A stretch of 64,000 nt of DNA from Candidatus Thorarchaeota archaeon (GTDB lineage: Archaea; Asgardarchaeota; Thorarchaeia; Thorarchaeales; Thorarchaeaceae). Position numbers and translations under genes: made by a program. Each line of letters opens with the position of its first letter. The stretch's first letter is position 1. The notes beneath the pieces are model-generated. The model was given only the letters and a program-made list of their open reading frames with translations. It searched no databases and was not told the DNA's origin. This document shows positions 22,703 through 32,093 of this stretch, in pieces. The stretch is taken from NCBI GenBank assembly GCA_018335335.1, contig JAGXKG010000006.1:1-64000 (forward strand), written 5' to 3'.

Positions 22703-24265
22703 TTGACCGATTTGAAAACAAGGGTTACAGAGGTCAGCGTCTTGTTGGGCGGTGCGATAGTAACCAGAACTGGAAGAGCCAAACTCGAAACTGGTTCGCG
22801 TGAGATTTGGGTGCGCGGGATTACTAGCAACGCATCACGTGACAGCTTTCGAATTACTGGAGAAGGAGCCGCGACAATTACCAACTTCGATGTTATCAAA
22901 CAGACGAAAGCCATCATTCCTGAAGCAGATGTATCTGCGCTCAGAGATGAGCTTGATGAACTTGAGCAGAAGCTCGATGAAATCGATGACCAACTGAAAA
23001 TCAACGAAGATCGTCTGAATGCGGTTGAAGATGTTGCTGGAGATTTCTCGGAGACATTTGGGCGGACTTTCGCTGGCGGTGACATAGAAATTCAGAAGCT
23101 TACGCAGATGGATACCAAATCTCTGGAACTAATCCGATCTATCAAGAAGAGAATCAGAGAATTATTGGATGAGAGAAAAGATATTGTTAACCAAATTCAG
23201 GTTCTTAAACATCAAATCGCTGAGAAGTCGGAAAAGCAACTAATCAAAAACACATACGATGTCCGAGTTAGCCTTGACGTAAGAAAGACAACAGAGATTA
23301 CTCTGAACGTCGTCTATCAATGTTCTTCTGCGTCTTGGGAACCAACCTATGATATCAACCTGACAGCTACTGGGGCAAAAGTCAGGAGAATCGCAGTAGT
23401 AAGGAATCAAACTGGTGAAAACTGGAATGAAGTAGACATGGTTGTTTCTAGCGCAAGAGCTGGACCCGTAGAAGCCGTAGAAGGAACCCCGCTCATCTTG
23501 AGGGAATATGTGCCCCGACCATCAAGAAGAATGAAAGAATCTAGTGGAGGAGGCGCTCCCATGGCATTACACGCAGCTGCACCTATGAAGAAGCGTGCAC
23601 CTCCTCCTGAACCAGAAATGGAAATCGAGGAGGCAGAAGTTGAGGAATTAGAAGGCGGTATCTCGCGCTATGAAGCTCCTGCACCTGTAACCGTCAAGTC
23701 TGGTAATAAAAGGCCTGTAGATCTCATCAGAGAAGAATTGCTTTCAGAAGTCCAGTACTATTGGTATCCTGATAGTATGATGGAAGTTATCGCAGAAAAC
23801 GAAGTTACCAACGGGGATAGCGCATTGATGGCTGGAGAAGCTAAAATCTATGCAGACGGCGAATATATTGGGGAAACAAGTATTCCGTTCACTTCTCCCC
23901 GTGAGAAACGGACTCTTGGTACACGAATTGCTCACGACGTAAAAGCTGAGAAGAGGCTAATTGACAAAACAATAGAGAAGGCCGGTTTGACCCGGGGTAA
24001 GCTGAGAAGAAAATATGTCTATAGGCTTTCAATAGAGAATCTATCCAAAAAGGGAATAAAAATCGAGGTTGTCGATAGGATTCCGCACAGTAACGAACCT
24101 GACCTCAAGGTGGAAGCGAATATCGATAAAATCAATGCGGATAAGCATCATCTCGGAATCTTAACGTGGAACCTCAGGATACCTAGTGAGAAGAAGCATA
24201 CTATTGAGTATGAATATGAGGTAGAATGGGAAAGTGCTAGGGCTATCTATCCACCACTGCCATAG
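22703..24265 (+). CDS. DUF4139-family coiled-coil protein (first of a tandem pair)
   Basis: The 520-residue protein has an N-terminal beta domain (DUF4140-like, with VLLGGAIVTRTGRA and WVRGITSNASRDSFRITG), a long coiled coil at about 75-175, and a C-terminal beta domain (DUF4139) with SSASWEPTYDIN, GENWNEVDMVVSSARAGP and, near the end, DRIPHSNEPDLKV and YEYEVEW. A Pro/Glu-rich linker at 270-320 separates parts of the last domain. The start is a TTG. The family is found in bacteria, fungi and animals and is linked by name to mucoidy inhibition in bacteria; its molecular role is unknown. There is no signal peptide. The paralogue starts within 13 bases of its stop. Confidence 0.75.
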   Translation: MTDLKTRVTEVSVLLGGAIVTRTGRAKLETGSREIWVRGITSNASRDSFRITGEGAATITNFDVIKQTKAIIPEADVSALRDELDELEQKLDEIDDQLKINEDRLNAVEDVAGDFSETFGRTFAGGDIEIQKLTQMDTKSLELIRSIKKRIRELLDERKDIVNQIQVLKHQIAEKSEKQLIKNTYDVRVSLDVRKTTEITLNVVYQCSSASWEPTYDINLTATGAKVRRIAVVRNQTGENWNEVDMVVSSARAGPVEAVEGTPLILREYVPRPSRRMKESSGGGAPMALHAAAPMKKRAPPPEPEMEIEEAEVEELEGGISRYEAPAPVTVKSGNKRPVDLIREELLSEVQYYWYPDSMMEVIAENEVTNGDSALMAGEAKIYADGEYIGETSIPFTSPREKRTLGTRIAHDVKAEKRLIDKTIEKAGLTRGKLRRKYVYRLSIENLSKKGIKIEVVDRIPHSNEPDLKVEANIDKINADKHHLGILTWNLRIPSEKKHTIEYEYEVEWESARAIYPPLP

Positions 24266-24277
24266 GATGTGACAAAC

Positions 24278-25819
24278 ATGACTACAAGAATTGACGCACC
24301 GGTCAACAGTGTTACAGTATTTGTAGACGGCGCTCGGGTGACGCGAAAGGGAGCGGCACCACTTGCCCCAGGAGAGCAGGATATCATAGTGCGTGGAATA
24401 ACGAAATTTGCCCAAGATGATAGTTTTCGGGTGAAGGGCACTGGCAGAGCTAGTATACGGGGAATCAATGTAGAGACCCACAAGGAGGTTTTCGAGCCAG
24501 AAGGGGATACTGAGACGCTAAGAAGCAAGCTGAGAAAGCTGGAAGATGAACGAGATGAAATCAATGATGAACTGAGTATCCAAGAGACCAGGGTAGAGCG
24601 GATTCAGACTGTACTTACCAACTTCTCTGGTGAGTTTGGCAAACGTTATGCTTTCGGTGATAGTGAAATAAGCGCACTAGCAGCTTTAGATGAAGAAACC
24701 ACTACCATGCGAGAAGAAGCATATGAGAAGATAAGAGAACTGCAGCGAGAACTGGAGAAGGTGGAAGCCAAGATATCCGAGGTCAAATCCTCCCTGCAAC
24801 GAATTGAGGGCGAGCGAAGAATAGAAGCAACAAAGGAAGTGAAGATACGTCTGGATGTAAGAGAAGAGTGTACAGTAAACTTGGAGGTAACATATCAGAT
24901 TCAGGAGGCTCGTTGGATACCTCAGTATGACATTGATGTAATGGATAACAGAACTACCCTGAAACGGCTTGCTCTAATATGGAATCATAGCATTGAAGAC
25001 TGGATTGATGTGGATTTGGTGGTGTCAACAGCGTCAGCCAAACCTGTCAGGAAGATTGAACCTGAGCCTTTCTACATACAAACAAGACGTGCCGATACAG
25101 TAACAAGTCGTGGTGAGACTGAGGATGTCATTGCCAAAATTGAACGAGCCTACGAGACTGCTGGAGATATGAAAGCTGCCCCGGTGAGAGTTACTGAAAC
25201 TACGAGCGGAGGTATGGTATTTCAGGTTCCGGGTAGGGTGACAGTTCCGGCGGATAGAGATCAGCATCCAATCACTCTGCTGGAGGAAGAGTTCGAAAGC
25301 GAAGAAATCTACTATTGGAACGCCTACGCGATGGACACCTTTGTGATTCAGAATCGGATATCCAATGGGGATTCACTGATTCTTCCCGGAAAAGTAAAGG
25401 TTTACGCGGATGGTGACTTTCTCAGCGAAACAGCAATATCAACAGTTGCTCCCCGAGAGGAATTCTATCTAGGAACTCGAGAAGCCTATGATATCAAAGG
25501 CGAAAAGAAGATGTTTGAGAAGGAGACCGAAAAGGCTGGCCTAACAAGGGGGAAAAAGCGGCGGATATACAAGTATCATCTAAAGACTGAGAGTTTCGCC
25601 AAGGAACCTGTCACTGTTCGCCTAGTTGACCGGATTCCACACAGTGACTCGGAGAGAATCAACGTGGAACTCAAGAATCTCACTCGAGACTACAAAAGCA
25701 TGGAGCTTGGGGTTATTGTCTGGGAATTTGAGATACCACCTGAAGAAGAAATGAAAATAGAATATTCATATTCGGTAGAGTGGGAGAAGGATATTGAGAT
25801 TACTCCACCTCTTCCATAG
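24278..25819 (+). CDS. DUF4139-family coiled-coil protein (second of a tandem pair)
   Basis: This paralogue of the preceding gene has the same three-part layout: N-terminal beta domain with VTVFVDGARVTRKGAAPL and IIVRGITKFAQDDSFRVKG, a coiled coil at about 70-180, and a DUF4139 domain with EARWIPQYDIDV, EDWIDVDLVVSTASAKP, DRIPHSDSERINVE and YSYSVEW. The sequences differ throughout, so the duplication is old. I chose the ATG at 24278; a GTG at 24269 is also in frame. Two such proteins from one message suggest a heteromeric filament or complex, which is an inference. It converges with the 354-residue helical gene of the tubulin cluster. Confidence 0.75.
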   Translation: MTTRIDAPVNSVTVFVDGARVTRKGAAPLAPGEQDIIVRGITKFAQDDSFRVKGTGRASIRGINVETHKEVFEPEGDTETLRSKLRKLEDERDEINDELSIQETRVERIQTVLTNFSGEFGKRYAFGDSEISALAALDEETTTMREEAYEKIRELQRELEKVEAKISEVKSSLQRIEGERRIEATKEVKIRLDVREECTVNLEVTYQIQEARWIPQYDIDVMDNRTTLKRLALIWNHSIEDWIDVDLVVSTASAKPVRKIEPEPFYIQTRRADTVTSRGETEDVIAKIERAYETAGDMKAAPVRVTETTSGGMVFQVPGRVTVPADRDQHPITLLEEEFESEEIYYWNAYAMDTFVIQNRISNGDSLILPGKVKVYADGDFLSETAISTVAPREEFYLGTREAYDIKGEKKMFEKETEKAGLTRGKKRRIYKYHLKTESFAKEPVTVRLVDRIPHSDSERINVELKNLTRDYKSMELGVIVWEFEIPPEEEMKIEYSYSVEWEKDIEITPPLP

Positions 25820-25902: not shown

Positions 25903-26967
25903 CTAGGGTTTCATCTGCGCTAGAATTTCCCGGAATCGTGGTTCAGCAAGAATGGCAAGCTGTAGCTTACATAGAAGCTTTGATGTCTCAGCGTAGATCA
26001 CCTGTCGAGTTGCATCACTATCGGTTTCTGCGTTCCTCAAGCTTTCCTCACAGCGTTGGTTCAATCGCTTGATGATTCGCTTCTCCAACTCAGGACCGCC
26101 CCAATCAAATGAATCGAAAGTGGTCTGTGCTTCCAATACCTTCTCCTGCACATTTACCTTTTCTTCTGCAAGAACTGGTTCTACACCTGAGAAGTACTTC
26201 GCAACTGCACGTTCTATTCGTTCAAGCTCATCGGGCATAAGCTCCCTTTCGGGAGGTCTTTTCTTGTGAAGATCTTGGAGCAATCTGGCACCAGGTGCTT
26301 CAGTGAGTAGTCCTCGTATGATTCGCACTATGACTTTCGCTGGCATTTCGATTACATCGCCAATGTATGGTGAACTCGATCTGTACCGATGTAACTCCTT
26401 TAGGACTTCTAGCCAGAACATTGGAAGGAGAATATGGCACCTTTTGGCATATTGATTGATCATGCGTTGAGTAGTGCCAATCAGCCCCCATTCATCATCC
26501 TCAATATCCACTTTCCTATAAGGTTCTTCTTTCGGTGTTTCGAATTCCTGAGTGACCTGTCCTGTTTCTGGAGCTGGTGTAACCTGCGTTTGAACTCTTT
26601 CTACCTCACCGGGGATTGTGGCAGTTTCGCCCTCAAGCAGGGATAGTATTTCAGTAGCAGGCCTTCCCCTAATCTTTGCCAGCTTCTCACGTTCTGCTAG
26701 CCTTGGCAGTAGATTCTCTATTTGCGATAGCCGCTTTATGATGAGACCCATGATGTTAGCTTCTGAATCAGAAATCCCATTCGCTGTTGTGGCATTCTCC
26801 ATCCACTTACGTGTGCGCTGGAGGCCTTGGGTCAACGAATCAACCCGATCTGGGTCTATTCTGCCCTCAATCTCCGAGCTAAGGAGAAAGTGTATCAAGG
26901 TTGAGTTGAGCGTCGAGATAACTAGGAGTCTCTCGACGAGTTCATCTGTTCTCAGTGGTTCACTCAC
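25903..26967 (-). CDS. Helical protein of the tubulin cluster, unknown
   Basis: I do not recognise a family. The 354 residues fall into two helical parts, at about 1-115 and 155-354, separated by a Pro/Glu/Thr-rich linker (TPAPETGQVTQEFETPKEEP). The second part contains DDEWGLIGTTQRMINQYAKR and GLLTEAPGARLLQDL, and ends with a helix-rich tail. No signal peptide, membrane helix or enzyme motif is present. It is the last gene of a same-strand run with the tubulin-family GTPase, 158 bases away, so it may be an adaptor or regulator of that filament. That link rests on position only. Confidence 0.6.
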   Translation of the reverse strand: MSEPLRTDELVERLLVISTLNSTLIHFLLSSEIEGRIDPDRVDSLTQGLQRTRKWMENATTANGISDSEANIMGLIIKRLSQIENLLPRLAEREKLAKIRGRPATEILSLLEGETATIPGEVERVQTQVTPAPETGQVTQEFETPKEEPYRKVDIEDDEWGLIGTTQRMINQYAKRCHILLPMFWLEVLKELHRYRSSSPYIGDVIEMPAKVIVRIIRGLLTEAPGARLLQDLHKKRPPERELMPDELERIERAVAKYFSGVEPVLAEEKVNVQEKVLEAQTTFDSFDWGGPELEKRIIKRLNQRCEESLRNAETDSDATRQVIYAETSKLLCKLQLAILAEPRFREILAQMKP

Positions 26968-27125
26968 TCGCAGCTTCCTCCAAAATAGTTAGTTAATAAA
27001 CTGCCTCGGCTATGCATCAGGGTATGACCACCAATATCAAGATTTCTAGCTCATGGTTAGGTTCCGACGCAAGTCTTGGAACTTGTTTCACCTTATTATG
27101 GATACTTCTCTTTCAAATCTGGCGC

Positions 27126-28517
27126 CTATTCAGTGGGTTGGGTAGAGAAATCTGCGTAGTAGCCAAAAAGCTCGCGAATATCGTTGATTGCATTCACCAA
27201 CTCTCTGCGCTCAACACCCTTTGAACGCTTGAACCACGACTGCTTAAGGGGAGATTTGCCACTGTGCAGGTTCACGAGTTGCGTAGCTTCCTTGACAATC
27301 TGGACGAGTTCGGGTATTTTTGGTAGGCCAAACAGAATCAATAGGTCCGTGGGGGTTTCGTTGTCATATTTCACGTAGCAGGGAGTAACTGCTGCGCCGG
27401 GTGCTGTGAACTGGTTGAGGGACTCCTTGAGATATGCACCGTATTCTGCCTTTGCTATTCTTCGTGAACCCTTAAGGACATAGAAGACCGATTCTGCGTT
27501 TGGCTGTTCTCCAATATCTGCGTAAGATCGTTCTGTTGCCGCATAGTTGACCATTGCCTTCAGCTGGTTTTGCATATTACCTGCATCAGGAATCAGGCCT
27601 GCATCCCGGTAAAGAGCTGGTATGACTACTGGGTCTAGGCGCCTGCTGTAGTCTGCTAGGTCCGTGGTTGGGAAAACGTCCTTTTCTGGTTCATATACCC
27701 CCGGAGAAAGCATGGCATCGATGACTTCAAGTGCAAGTGGGTTTACAAGTTCAACGAAGGCTTGCTCAGTTCTCACATCTTGTGGAGCTGCAGATTCAAG
27801 TGTAGATGGAACCATTCTCTCGATAGAATTCACATTTGCAATATCGACTTCGAGTTCCCTCTGAAGATAATCCACGCTGTCTGTTCTCCTCGACTGGAGA
27901 ATGCGCTTCAGCATAGTTCGATTGCTGAGAAGAATGGTGAGATCAGCGCCGCGCTCCTGCAGCTGTTCTCGAAGAAGTTTTGACATCCCCCACAGCGAGT
28001 TAAGTGCTTCGCTTGATTGACCTTCAAAAGGCAACACTCCAATAACATAGACGAATATTCGCCTACCCTCTTCCTCTTGGAATCTCTGCTTCAGAAGCTT
28101 GATGAGCGCAGGAGTGCCACCGCATCCGGTACCTCCACCAAGACTGGTGAAAATACAGAATCCAGAAACCCCTTCAAAGCCCAGCCCGGCCAGCTGGTCG
28201 AAAATGATGTCCTTGGAATCCATGACAGCTTCATATCCGTCCATGAAACGGCCACCTACACCAATTTCACTTGCTCCATACAAGAGAGTGTGTTCTTTTG
28301 GAATTCCATACTTGTCCCTGACTTTCGTTAGGTCAGCTCTATCTGTATTGATGAGCATGTAGCCCCTCACTCTGGAGGGCAGTTTCTTGTCTCTGCTTGA
28401 TTGCAGGTAGGAGCCAACGATATTCGAACCACATTCGCCAATTCCTATAGCGAATACTTCGGCAGCTCGAGCTGATTCTCCTTCAGTTCCTGCTGATCCC
28501 ATTCCTTGCATAGTCAT
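27126..28517 (-). CDS. Divergent tubulin/FtsZ-superfamily GTPase
   Basis: The 463-residue protein keeps the nucleotide-binding features of the family: IGIGECGSNIV at 24-34 (phosphate loop T1), NTDRADL at 57-63, GGGTGCGG at 127-134 (the tubulin signature), and VLPFEGQ at 161-167. The catalytic T7 loop appears as TTDLADY at 284-290, with both acidic residues that the next subunit uses to hydrolyse GTP. So it is likely an active, polymer-forming GTPase. Sequence between motifs differs clearly from FtsZ1, FtsZ2 and eukaryotic tubulin. The C-terminus is basic, then ends in FGYYADF. The start has a strong ribosome site (AAGGTGG) and follows the 912-residue coiled-coil gene by 12 bases, so the two are probably translated together. 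Confidence 0.85.
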   Translation of the reverse strand: MTMQGMGSAGTEGESARAAEVFAIGIGECGSNIVGSYLQSSRDKKLPSRVRGYMLINTDRADLTKVRDKYGIPKEHTLLYGASEIGVGGRFMDGYEAVMDSKDIIFDQLAGLGFEGVSGFCIFTSLGGGTGCGGTPALIKLLKQRFQEEEGRRIFVYVIGVLPFEGQSSEALNSLWGMSKLLREQLQERGADLTILLSNRTMLKRILQSRRTDSVDYLQRELEVDIANVNSIERMVPSTLESAAPQDVRTEQAFVELVNPLALEVIDAMLSPGVYEPEKDVFPTTDLADYSRRLDPVVIPALYRDAGLIPDAGNMQNQLKAMVNYAATERSYADIGEQPNAESVFYVLKGSRRIAKAEYGAYLKESLNQFTAPGAAVTPCYVKYDNETPTDLLILFGLPKIPELVQIVKEATQLVNLHSGKSPLKQSWFKRSKGVERRELVNAINDIRELFGYYADFSTQPTE

Positions 28518-28529
28518 CGTCCACCTTGT

Positions 28530-31268
28530 CTATTCTCGTTTTTCTACCATAGTATCGGCTATTACACGCATCGCCCAGGAGAGATAGGAAACAATATCTT
28601 CTTTGCTGTAGTTGTCCTTAATCTCCCTTATAGCGTCCTCAATGAACTTGTTTCTATCATCAACTGGGGCTGCTGGTGTGAATCCGGACATATACATGCG
28701 CAACGACTTGTGCCAATCATCCATTTTCTTGGCTTGCTGTACCCATCCGGTTTGAAGCTCCTTCATTTCCTTGAACTTTGTTATTGCAGTATCAAGTATT
28801 TCGGCATTTTGTAGTTCTTCTTGTAGTTTTTCCATACGGTTAAGCGGATAGACTTTCTGGCTGAATTCCTTGGGGTGCTTGTCGTAAACCCGACGAATCG
28901 TGGAGTAGTATTTGCTCTCCTCTGAAAGCTGCTCATGCAATCCTGTTTGATTCTTCCTTGCAATTTCCTTGATTACATCAAGCATTTCCTCTTGGATATT
29001 GGCCATGGTAAGGCATACATCAAGAGCCTCTGTGATTTCTGTGTCATCATTGGCTATCTCTTCAGGAACCTGATCAAGCAGGTTGTTTAAGCGTTCTACA
29101 AAATCTGTCATACCTTCTTGTTCGAAGATGGATATTGCTCCCTTAAGCTGCTCATATGCTTGATCTGCCCTACTGCCTATCTTCTGCTGAAGTTCATTTG
29201 AAGAAGTCAAAGCACGTAGTTCATCATATGTCTCTGCTGCAGCTTCTAATTCACGAGGTGGATTGTGCTTGATGGTTCGCAATCTTGCTAACTCTTCATC
29301 CATCAGCACACCGACCTTCGCAGCTTGTTCAAAGGATTCTATGAGTTCATCGACTTCATCTACTAGAAGTTCGACGATTTCATCGGTGATATCGTTCTCG
29401 TAGATGTCAATCATTTTCCGAGCTCTGGCTGGCAATTTGAACACGGAATCAGCAGCGACTCCGACATTGTTTAGTTTGCTGATTGAATCTTGGACCTCAG
29501 CGGGCATCTTGACTCCAGCACCCATGAGTTTGGCTGCTGCGAGTCGAATTTTGACTCCAAGTCTATAGCGCAAGTTCTCAATGGCTTCTTTTGCCTTCAC
29601 AAGGATGCTATCCTTTATTGTCCTCATCTCGGAGCGAATTGCACCGAATTCGTCAAGCTCTTCTATTGTGGATACGCCATCTTCTAAGTCCACAATTATC
29701 GGTAGGAATAGCTCTGCGTACTCTGGCTTGATAGTTTGGAGATCGTTGATAATAACCTCGAGTTCCTGCTTAGCGGCGTCTCTGAATGTAGCCACGCCGC
29801 TCTCAACAGCATCGCGGAGATTATCCAGAGACTCCAGCAAATACACTAGCCCGCCCTGCAATTCATCTACTTCTGGAGCTTTCTTGCTAAGTTGAGCGTA
29901 GTCAAGCACACGATCTGCTGAGGTTGCTAGTTCATTGAATCGTTGCAAGTAGCCTCGGATTTCTTCAGTAACTGTATTCCGATATCTCTCTTGCATTTTA
30001 CTAGCTTTCAAGTGGAGCTTGATCATGTCATTGATTTCTGCTTTATCGAGCTTCTTTTTCGCATCTGCGATGAATTCCCTGACTTTGAGTATATTCTTGA
30101 TACCTGTGTCTTCAGGACGTTCAGTAGCTTTTTCAATCTCTTCTAACACTTCTTGGATTTGATCCTTTAGGGCTATTTTGACTTGTCCTCGCCATTCAAT
30201 CATCTCTTGGTATGATGACAAAAGACCAGCTACATCTTCACTTTCTGAGATTGCTGTGGGTGGTTCGGGAATCATATCCGAGCTAGTTGGTATGCCCCCT
30301 TCCACAACTTTTGATGTAACACTATGTTTAATGTTGATAATCTTGTCTCTGAGCATGTTTGCCATTTTCTGTTTGGATGACCGTAGTTGGCTTTCCAAAC
30401 TTACGAGAGAGGTGAGATTATCTGTTTTGGTGGCATCTCTGGCTATGCTTCTGATTTCTTTTGAGTAATCTATTGGCAGATCTAGCCCTAATCGAGACGC
30501 CGTATCAACTGAAGCTTGAAGTGATTCTACTTCAGAAACAAGCGAGGCTGCCAGCATTCGACTCACTTCGTCCTTTCGACCGTCAAGATAGGACTTTTCC
30601 GCCTTGAGTTTCTCCATGGATTCAACAAGGTCATTGATGGGTTGGCCTTCTACGCCATTCATAGAAACCGTTGCGGAAACCTCTCCTCTGTCAATTGTTA
30701 TGTGTCTCTCGTAAGTTTCTAAGGTGCGCTTGTTTTCATCGAGTAAAGAACCTACTTGTCTTGCAACTTCTCTGTGCAATGCTGAATATTTATCGGAATA
30801 CTCCTTCAGGAATTGGTAGAGCTCTTTGAAATCCTTTACATCTCCAGCTCCTACCGGAGGGAATTCAAGCGCTTGTAATGTGTTGGTTTTTGCTGATGAT
30901 ATAATCTGGAGCCGCTGCCCGAGCTGAATAGTCTGTTGATATTCGTGTCGTACCTCGTCAGCCAAATCTCTTACTACTCTCATGAAACCTTCTCTGAGTT
31001 CACCTTGTGTTTTCTCAAGTTGATCTGAAAGTTTTCTTTTCTTGAGAAAGTTTATGCCTGATGTCCCTTCCAGTTCCTCCTCAATTTGCGTTAGCTTGGC
31101 AAATACATCGTACAAGTGACGCATTGGCCGTTTGAGTTTTTCATCAGTCTTTGGATTCAAGCGCACAAGTATGCTTTTTGCTTCAGAGAGCCTGTCTAGT
31201 TCTCTCCTCCATTTTGTAGTATTCAAAGGGCCTACCTCCAGATAGTCTTCTTCAAAGTTGTCAACCAC
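28530..31268 (-). CDS. 912-residue coiled-coil protein linked to the tubulin-family GTPase
   Basis: Almost the whole chain is helical with heptad-like hydrophobic spacing and very high Glu/Lys content. It has no signal peptide, membrane helix, ATPase motif or known domain. Short Gly/Pro-marked segments recur at about 260, 323, 583 and 651 (LGLDLPIDYSKEI, GGIPTSSDM, GAGVKMPAEVQDSI, VGVLMDEELARL) and may mark breaks or hinges between helical repeats. The chain ends only 12 bases before the GTPase start, so a structural partner of the filament is a reasonable inference. Alternatives are a scaffold or a cytoskeletal crosslinker. The ATG at 31268 follows a gap of about 190 bases after the TPR gene. 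Confidence 0.7.
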   Translation of the reverse strand: MVDNFEEDYLEVGPLNTTKWRRELDRLSEAKSILVRLNPKTDEKLKRPMRHLYDVFAKLTQIEEELEGTSGINFLKKRKLSDQLEKTQGELREGFMRVVRDLADEVRHEYQQTIQLGQRLQIISSAKTNTLQALEFPPVGAGDVKDFKELYQFLKEYSDKYSALHREVARQVGSLLDENKRTLETYERHITIDRGEVSATVSMNGVEGQPINDLVESMEKLKAEKSYLDGRKDEVSRMLAASLVSEVESLQASVDTASRLGLDLPIDYSKEIRSIARDATKTDNLTSLVSLESQLRSSKQKMANMLRDKIINIKHSVTSKVVEGGIPTSSDMIPEPPTAISESEDVAGLLSSYQEMIEWRGQVKIALKDQIQEVLEEIEKATERPEDTGIKNILKVREFIADAKKKLDKAEINDMIKLHLKASKMQERYRNTVTEEIRGYLQRFNELATSADRVLDYAQLSKKAPEVDELQGGLVYLLESLDNLRDAVESGVATFRDAAKQELEVIINDLQTIKPEYAELFLPIIVDLEDGVSTIEELDEFGAIRSEMRTIKDSILVKAKEAIENLRYRLGVKIRLAAAKLMGAGVKMPAEVQDSISKLNNVGVAADSVFKLPARARKMIDIYENDITDEIVELLVDEVDELIESFEQAAKVGVLMDEELARLRTIKHNPPRELEAAAETYDELRALTSSNELQQKIGSRADQAYEQLKGAISIFEQEGMTDFVERLNNLLDQVPEEIANDDTEITEALDVCLTMANIQEEMLDVIKEIARKNQTGLHEQLSEESKYYSTIRRVYDKHPKEFSQKVYPLNRMEKLQEELQNAEILDTAITKFKEMKELQTGWVQQAKKMDDWHKSLRMYMSGFTPAAPVDDRNKFIEDAIREIKDNYSKEDIVSYLSWAMRVIADTMVEKRE

Positions 31269-31457
31269 ATATTAAAGTGTATTTCGCGAATATTCGGAAC
31301 TATTCCAAATTGATGCATTAGATTGCATTATTTCGAAATAGCTGGTTGCCGCTGCGGTTTCCTTCTATCCCTTAGTTATAATAACCTTGTATTGCAAATC
31401 ATGACAATTCCAAGTGACAAACTTCTAAATCTGTTCTTTGACAGAAATACGGCTTTG

Positions 31458-32093
31458 CTATGACGCTTCGCCCAACTTCTCAACCTCATCATCTACATCA
31501 GACCATTCCTCAATAAGGTCCTCGAAATTCGGGTCTAATGATGTAGCATAGTCAAGTGCTATCGCAGCAGCCTCTTCGTCCCCCAACATCAAATAACATA
31601 CTGCGCAGTTATACCAAGCCTCAGCATGATTTGGGTTGAGACGCAGGACTTTTTCCAGAGCTAGAAGGGCTTTTCTCCACTCCTCTTCAATAAGGTGTGC
31701 TGCAGCCAGAAGTAGCCAGTGCCGCCAGTTTCTTGGTGATAATTCTAAGCTTTTCCTCAGAGATTCTACACTTTCCGATTGCTGATTTAAAAGAAGATGA
31801 AGATAGCCCTTATCTGCCCATGCTCGCTGTGCTCCCGGCTCGATTCTCAGTAAATTCTCTAGGGCGTCAATTGCTTGGTGTGGCTGTTTCATCTCGATTT
31901 GACAGGCGATGAGTGTTTTCCATGCTTCAGCATTGTTTGGATGGATTCTCAGAGTTTCTTGAAGTGCATCTACTGCCTCGCTATATCTTGCTCTATTGAT
32001 GAGAGCTGTTGCCTTCTCCAGGGAATCCCCTGTTTGTTGGCTCCGAGGTGTATTATTGGTCATTAATTCGTTTGCTCCCTGTACTTGTGGCAT
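31458..32093 (-). CDS. TPR-repeat protein
   Basis: About five tetratricopeptide repeats cover residues 22-195: for example ARYSEAVDALQETLRIHPNN, HQAIDALENLLRIEPGAQ, SESVESLRKSLELSPRN and WRKALLALEKVLRLNPNH. The tail is acidic (EEWSDVDDEVEK). Such solenoids bind other proteins, so it is likely an assembly or adaptor protein. It is encoded just upstream of the coiled-coil and tubulin-family genes on the same strand, with about 190 bases between, which suggests, but does not prove, a shared role. An internal ATG at MTNNTPRS is a possible alternative start. Confidence 0.8.
   Translation of the reverse strand: MPQVQGANELMTNNTPRSQQTGDSLEKATALINRARYSEAVDALQETLRIHPNNAEAWKTLIACQIEMKQPHQAIDALENLLRIEPGAQRAWADKGYLHLLLNQQSESVESLRKSLELSPRNWRHWLLLAAAHLIEEEWRKALLALEKVLRLNPNHAEAWYNCAVCYLMLGDEEAAAIALDYATSLDPNFEDLIEEWSDVDDEVEKLGEAS

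Follow-up and report, generated by a model that had tools for sequence, protein, structure and literature searches.

A tubulin-superfamily GTPase encoded together with two helical partner proteins in five Asgard lineages: a candidate cytoskeletal gene cassette

The DNA analysed here (the window) comprises the first 64,000 nucleotides of contig JAGXKG010000006.1 of a Candidatus Thorarchaeota archaeon (assembly GCA_018335335.1), a Thorarchaeia-type Asgard genome of 2.94 Mb (97 % complete) whose nearest named relatives are metagenome-assembled genomes (MAGs) of Candidatus Thorarchaeota. A cytoskeletal gene cluster had been predicted at positions 25,903 to 32,093 from the nucleotide sequence, and the four open reading frames (ORFs) assigned to it were all recovered on the minus strand. 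The genes, and the features of the GTPase discussed below, are as follows (lengths in amino acids, aa; HMM, hidden Markov model):

31458-32093, minus strand: gene for a TPR protein (211 aa)
28530-31268, minus strand: gene for CC, a putative modular helical rod protein (912 aa)
27126-28517, minus strand: gene for the tubulin-superfamily GTPase (463 aa)
28119-28466, minus strand: GTP-binding loops T1 (GIGECGSN) to T4 (GGGTGCGG) of the GTPase, residues 18-133; invariant columns, aligned with the loops of FtsZ, CetZ and tubulin
27648-27671, minus strand: T7 catalytic loop PTTDLADY of the GTPase, residues 283-290, with D286 and D289 invariant
27156-27239, minus strand: tubulin H11-H12-like C-terminal segment of the GTPase, SWFKRSKGVERRELVNAINDIRELFGYY, residues 427-454, suggested by an HMM of Asgard tubulin C-termini
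25903-26967, minus strand: gene for HEL, a helical partner (354 aa)

The intergenic gaps measure 189 nt (TPR-CC), 12 nt (CC-GTPase) and 158 nt (GTPase-HEL). As predicted, the GTPase gene starts 12 bases past the end of the gene for the 912-residue protein on the same strand and is preceded by a purine-rich ribosome site (AAGGTGG); a further such site (GGAGG) precedes HEL.

The GTPase scores 69 bits with the Pfam family Tubulin (PF00091, cut-off 33), 16.9 bits with Tubulin_2 (PF13809), below the Pfam cut-off of 27, and 33 bits with the NCBIfam FtsZ model (TIGR00065), which it does not pass (cut-off 295). The tubulin/FtsZ catalytic loops for which it had been singled out, GGGTGCGG and TTDLADY, are both present, so that the PF00091 domain, the T4 motif GGGTG[CST]G and the acidic T7 residues of the superfamily were all found. 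Across 35 relatives from five Asgard lineages, G25, G27-E28-C29-G30, N57-T58, G127-G133, N199, D286 and D289 are invariant. Alignment with MAFFT L-INS-i sets PTTDLADY over the T7 loops of FtsZ (NLDFADV), tubulin (N.DL.EL) and CetZ (VVDSSE), indicating that the catalytic acids are retained; HHalign gave no global placement of the GTPase T7. Past its conserved part the protein has only a short variable tail, differing in this from FtsZ, in which a linker and a tail follow the fold. The source genome contains two further PF00091 genes, which group in the tree as FtsZ1 and FtsZ2, so that the GTPase gene is its third of the tubulin superfamily. Judged by its sequence, the 463-aa GTPase is a genuine member of the superfamily and neither FtsZ1 nor FtsZ2.

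When 228 Asgard genomes were searched at the protein level, 70 contained the GTPase, 70 CC and 68 HEL. The three sets are nearly identical, and several of the mismatches correspond to contigs ending in or beside the cassette. Profile searches added no genomes (CC 70, HEL 68) and thus revealed neither CC nor HEL in Asgard genomes beyond the range of the cassette. The carriers are Thor-, Hermod-, Borr-/Sif-, Hod- (some labelled Heimdall-) and Baldrarchaea; within Thorarchaeia the presence is vertical and near-universal. Among the same genomes, the GTPase was not found in the large family with two FtsZ proteins (presumably Lokiarchaeales) or in that with alpha/beta-tubulin (presumably Heimdallarchaeales). 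Two MAGs labelled Lokiarchaeota (L072, L079) harbour cassettes of the Thorarchaeia type (77-80 % identity), and their labels are therefore probably wrong. A scan of GTDB contigs, relying on family-specific peptide patterns, yielded 66 confirmed loci, all 66 from Asgard MAGs or from MAGs of unnamed archaea of like kind.

The neighbourhood search in other Asgard genomes called for by the original prediction showed the arrangement to be kept in all five lineages: in the loci of named genomes, CC and GTPase are same-strand neighbours in 62 of 62 and GTPase and HEL in 54 of 54 cases, HEL always lying directly 3' of the GTPase gene. This linkage greatly exceeds what chance would produce. The median gap is 12 nt for both pairs, a spacing typical of operons, and the genes overlap at many loci. 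Larger gaps separate CC and GTPase in two pairs, amounting to 513 nt and to 4.3 kb, the latter with an ORF of ~1200 aa. Such an ORF (F43) was observed between CC and GTPase in the Hodarchaeal MAGs of L095 (2145-5753) and L096, and also in L118. The 158-nt GTPase-HEL gap of the window exceeds those of all 54 named loci measured, and in another genome of the source genus (G219, L046:8642-16858) ~8 kb with five ORFs lie between the two genes. The three proteins diverge in step, their pairwise distances being correlated (Spearman 0.88-0.93, 44 complete cassettes), which fits joint vertical inheritance of the three genes. Since the genes on either side differ from lineage to lineage, while being stable within each, the three genes are held together against rearrangement. 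In the window, tandem DUF4140/DUF4139 proteins (520 and 516 aa) are encoded at 22703-25819, outside the cassette, in an orientation converging on the HEL gene.

Membership of the two outer genes had been proposed at first, and this holds for HEL, given its constant position and the median gap of 12 nt, but not for the TPR gene. The latter occurs in Thorarchaeia only, where it is nearly always split from CC by an opposite-strand gene of ~640 aa; this gene is missing at the TPR-CC junction of the window. Among the genomes examined, the TPR gene directly adjoins the cassette only in the source genus and in one further Thorarchaeon (L080). Because it is limited to Thorarchaeia and usually separated, it was dropped from the system. 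The unit delimited by gene order and distribution is exactly three genes, i.e., CC, GTPase and HEL.

The AlphaFold model of CC is all-helical (pLDDT 85, pTM 0.40) with about 30 helices. As none of these exceeds about 44 residues and tandem repeats are present, the description as a long coiled-coil protein was not borne out. The repeat is a helical unit of ~120-130 aa whose copy number differs between lineages. A profile of residues 232-365 recovered three consecutive units in the CC protein of L112 (E 3e-34, 4e-10 and 3e-11) and likewise in that of L102, two to four units in CC of Hodarchaea, and, in some Thorarchaeial CC proteins, one additional copy around 608-704. Self-comparison by profile sees the repeat weakly (21-24 % probability, offset 128-135), and the unit HMM detects it clearly. 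Across lineages, the length of CC varies between about 900 and 1300 aa, in part through added units. The modelled structure is better read as a modular, length-adjustable helical rod. Searches of Pfam, NCBIfam, PADLOC and PDB sequences returned no consistent family match for CC, no solved rod protein was matched in sequence or fold searches, and the best Foldseek hit had an E value of about 0.3. Kinship with dynein tails, vinculin or Exo70 was considered and rejected, as the matches were not significant. By these comparisons, CC is classed as an orphan family, restricted among the 228 genomes to those carrying the cassette.

HEL is predicted by AlphaFold to consist of less confident N-terminal helices, a disordered linker at about 110-144 and a helical C-terminal domain (150-354, pLDDT about 96). 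It gave no fold match in the PDB (best Foldseek E 0.33) and no consistent family match in Pfam, NCBIfam, PADLOC or PDB sequences, and is likewise classed as an orphan family. In some Hodarchaeales (L100, L101, L104), a second CC-GTPase pair stands without HEL, pointing to CC and GTPase as the minimal core. This second pair has a co-directional gene of ~311 aa upstream, matching no recognised kind, and downstream, on the opposite strand, a gene whose product resembles an Arf/Rag-type GTPase.

In a tree of 44 proteins, with CetZ sampled by four haloarchaeal sequences only and artubulin left out, the GTPase family forms a clade of its own (support 100/99), its stem measuring 2.7 changes per site. 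None of the FtsZ, CetZ and Asgard tubulin sequences falls within this clade, and the 19 FtsZ rows constitute one group without the GTPase, which accordingly does not fall within FtsZ1 or FtsZ2, in line with the original prediction. The clade joins the Asgard tubulins at 98/94, long branches being flagged at this point. Tentatively, the GTPase may be regarded as an intermediate lineage on the side of tubulin, with which it would share an ancestor postdating the FtsZ/CetZ split. A PDB profile search points the same way insofar as it scores tubulins, including OdinTubulin and gamma-tubulin (28-33 bits), and not FtsZ proper, which is absent at 1e-5. The C-terminus adds to this possibility: the conserved end of the GTPase (WF.RSKG...EEL..A..D...LF.YY) resembles that of tubulin (HWY...G....D...AR.....L..EY), and when an HMM built on the last helices (H11-H12) of three Asgard tubulins was searched against the 1853 ORFs of the loci retrieved, the GTPase family took ranks 1 to 27 (best E 0.0018). 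Column shuffling of the HMM, repeated 200 times, never gave the observed score (12.4 versus at most 5.9 bits, alignment set), and HMMs of FtsZ and CetZ C-termini did not find the family among these ORFs. However, the long branches may have attracted each other, the tubulin HMM was built from three sequences only, and the converse search, in which a profile of the GTPase C-terminus was run over the whole PDB, returned no tubulin, for which reason the weak, though shuffle-tested, likeness to tubulin H12 is held as suggestive. Moreover, indels have been used to argue that Asg.Tub, a group of Asgard tubulin-like proteins considered below, is not affiliated with tubulin (PMC9871819).

The same PDB profile search is led by CetZ (54, 37 and 34 bits), and the only FtsZ-named entries among its hits (4b46, 4b45) are in fact CetZ1 and CetZ2 (PMC9856176). 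In local HHalign comparisons, too, CetZ is the best partner of the N-terminal domain (E 1.6e-12), and the position of Asg.Tub was reported as unstable, either with tubulins or with CetZ (PMC9871819). That the GTPase is a divergent CetZ-type cell-shape tubulin which acquired Asgard-specific partners nevertheless appears doubtful: apart from the tree position, a forced grouping of GTPase and CetZ fits worse, albeit only at p = 0.047 in the approximately unbiased (AU) test, with haloarchaeal CetZ only and with long branches meeting. Furthermore, TTDLADY differs from the CetZ T7 loop VVDSSE, and the family is not among the top-ranking of the 1853 ORFs when these are searched with the CetZ C-terminal HMM.

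In Asgards, which are relatives of complex cells, the cassette has been kept in at least five major lineages, and its products probably form a filament system inside the cell that has not been described before. The reading favoured here with fair confidence is that its three genes are a single operon which encodes a dedicated cytoskeletal system of Asgards, operating alongside FtsZ1/FtsZ2; in this reading we infer polymerisation, binding between the gene products and a role in cell shape or internal organisation. Superfamily proteins with such a set of loops and acidic T7 residues stack head to tail and hydrolyse GTP at the interface. The GTPase would correspondingly bind GTP and assemble head to tail into protofilaments, the invariant acids D286 and D289 completing the GTPase site of the next subunit, such that GTP hydrolysis would drive turnover. 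The CC rod, its length set by the number of helical units, may attach to the filament and act on protofilaments as a crosslinker or spacer, or tie them to another structure, while HEL could serve as an adaptor binding GTPase and/or rod and controlling assembly or attachment. As no clear transmembrane segment is present in CC, GTPase or HEL of the window, the system would be cytosolic or attached via another protein. Several considerations weigh against this proposal: conservation of an operon is evidence of a functional link and not of binding, the CC rod could belong to another structure merely regulated by the GTPase, and some tubulin-fold proteins may form no lasting filaments. A more far-reaching version, still speculative, would see in the cassette a third tubulin-type cytoskeleton that is old in Asgards, among them the Hodarchaeales, which are often placed near eukaryotes, and that has its own rod crosslinker and adaptor; its GTPase would already carry tubulin-type C-terminal helices and might bridge FtsZ/CetZ and tubulin. 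In eukaryotes, the C-terminal helices of tubulin bind motors and microtubule-associated proteins.

A spare cell-division ring, partly replacing FtsZ1 or FtsZ2, would agree with the complement of FtsZ genes in some carriers, since besides the GTPase the Hodarchaeales inspected possess a single FtsZ2-type gene and a Hermodarchaeal genome a single FtsZ1-type gene (L128, L136, L129), other Asgards having both. Such a role is unlikely, since Thor-, Borr- and Baldrarchaea carry two other PF00091 genes besides the GTPase, the FtsZ-type linker and tail past the fold are missing from it, and no division gene is recognisable in the partly annotated flanks of the cassette. Partition of DNA or plasmids by a mobile element, as established for the tubulin relatives TubZ and PhuZ, is highly improbable in view of the vertical inheritance and lineage-stable flanks of the cassette, the lack of homologues in the viral contigs, plasmids and defence models searched, and the lack of a recognisable DNA-binding partner gene.

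Tubulins proper are known from few Asgard genomes. For internal organisation by means other than FtsZ and actin, a GTPase with the same two partners over Thor-, Hermod-, Borr/Sif-, Hod- and Baldrarchaea represents a specific and expressible candidate. Dedicated rod partners of variable length would give archaea an equivalent of the linkers associated with microtubules or FtsZ. Should the C-terminal likeness prove real, it would have implications for the origin of tubulin. Very divergent tubulin-like genes of another kind were observed in a family (f8) probably representing Heimdallarchaeales, often as ~460-aa and ~390-aa genes close together (L160, L167 [G041:C4:490946-493883], L154, L161, L159, L169, L153, L168). 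They form two groups of their own, do not join the GTPase family and may constitute another undescribed system.

With respect to known systems, the GTPase family is probably Asg.Tub, a small group of non-FtsZ tubulin-like proteins with few members from Heimdallarchaeia and Lokiarchaeia, whose genes neighbour unknown genes with coiled-coil regions (Santana-Molina 2023, PMC9871819); this assignment is based on taxonomic range and coiled-coil neighbours. The main text of that study does not include the invariant cassette, repeat rod, HEL, wider range or H12 likeness, and no account of cassette, repeat rod or HEL was found in the open-access literature searched. CetZ is, like the GTPase, an archaeal superfamily protein apart from FtsZ and the top PDB sequence match, from which the GTPase differs by its own clade, its T7 loop, the suggestive tubulin likeness of its C-terminus and its constant association with CC and HEL; none of five plasmid CetZ loci inspected has a CC/HEL-like arrangement. 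Asgard and eukaryotic tubulins (AtubA/B, OdinTubulin, Heim alpha/beta) have in common with the GTPase the fold family, the occurrence in Asgards and, as a suggestive likeness, the C-terminal motif WF/WY...G...L..A..D...L, whereas the GTPase is very divergent, has an FtsZ-like T2 (NTD) and a DxxD T7, and is present as a single type per cassette. It is also widespread in its own lineages, in contrast to the reportedly sporadic Asgard tubulins (PMC13371889, PMC12993045).

As to operon partners, artubulin is reportedly an archaeal tubulin relative that has one (Yutin and Koonin, 2012). Artubulin is Thaumarchaeal; its partner is Snf7-like according to PMC9871819. The proposed pairing of GTPase and CC, with CC operonic and devoid of a clear membrane segment, has a parallel in FtsZ-EzrA of Bacillus, where a tubulin-family filament has a helical-repeat rod partner that, unlike CC, carries a membrane anchor.

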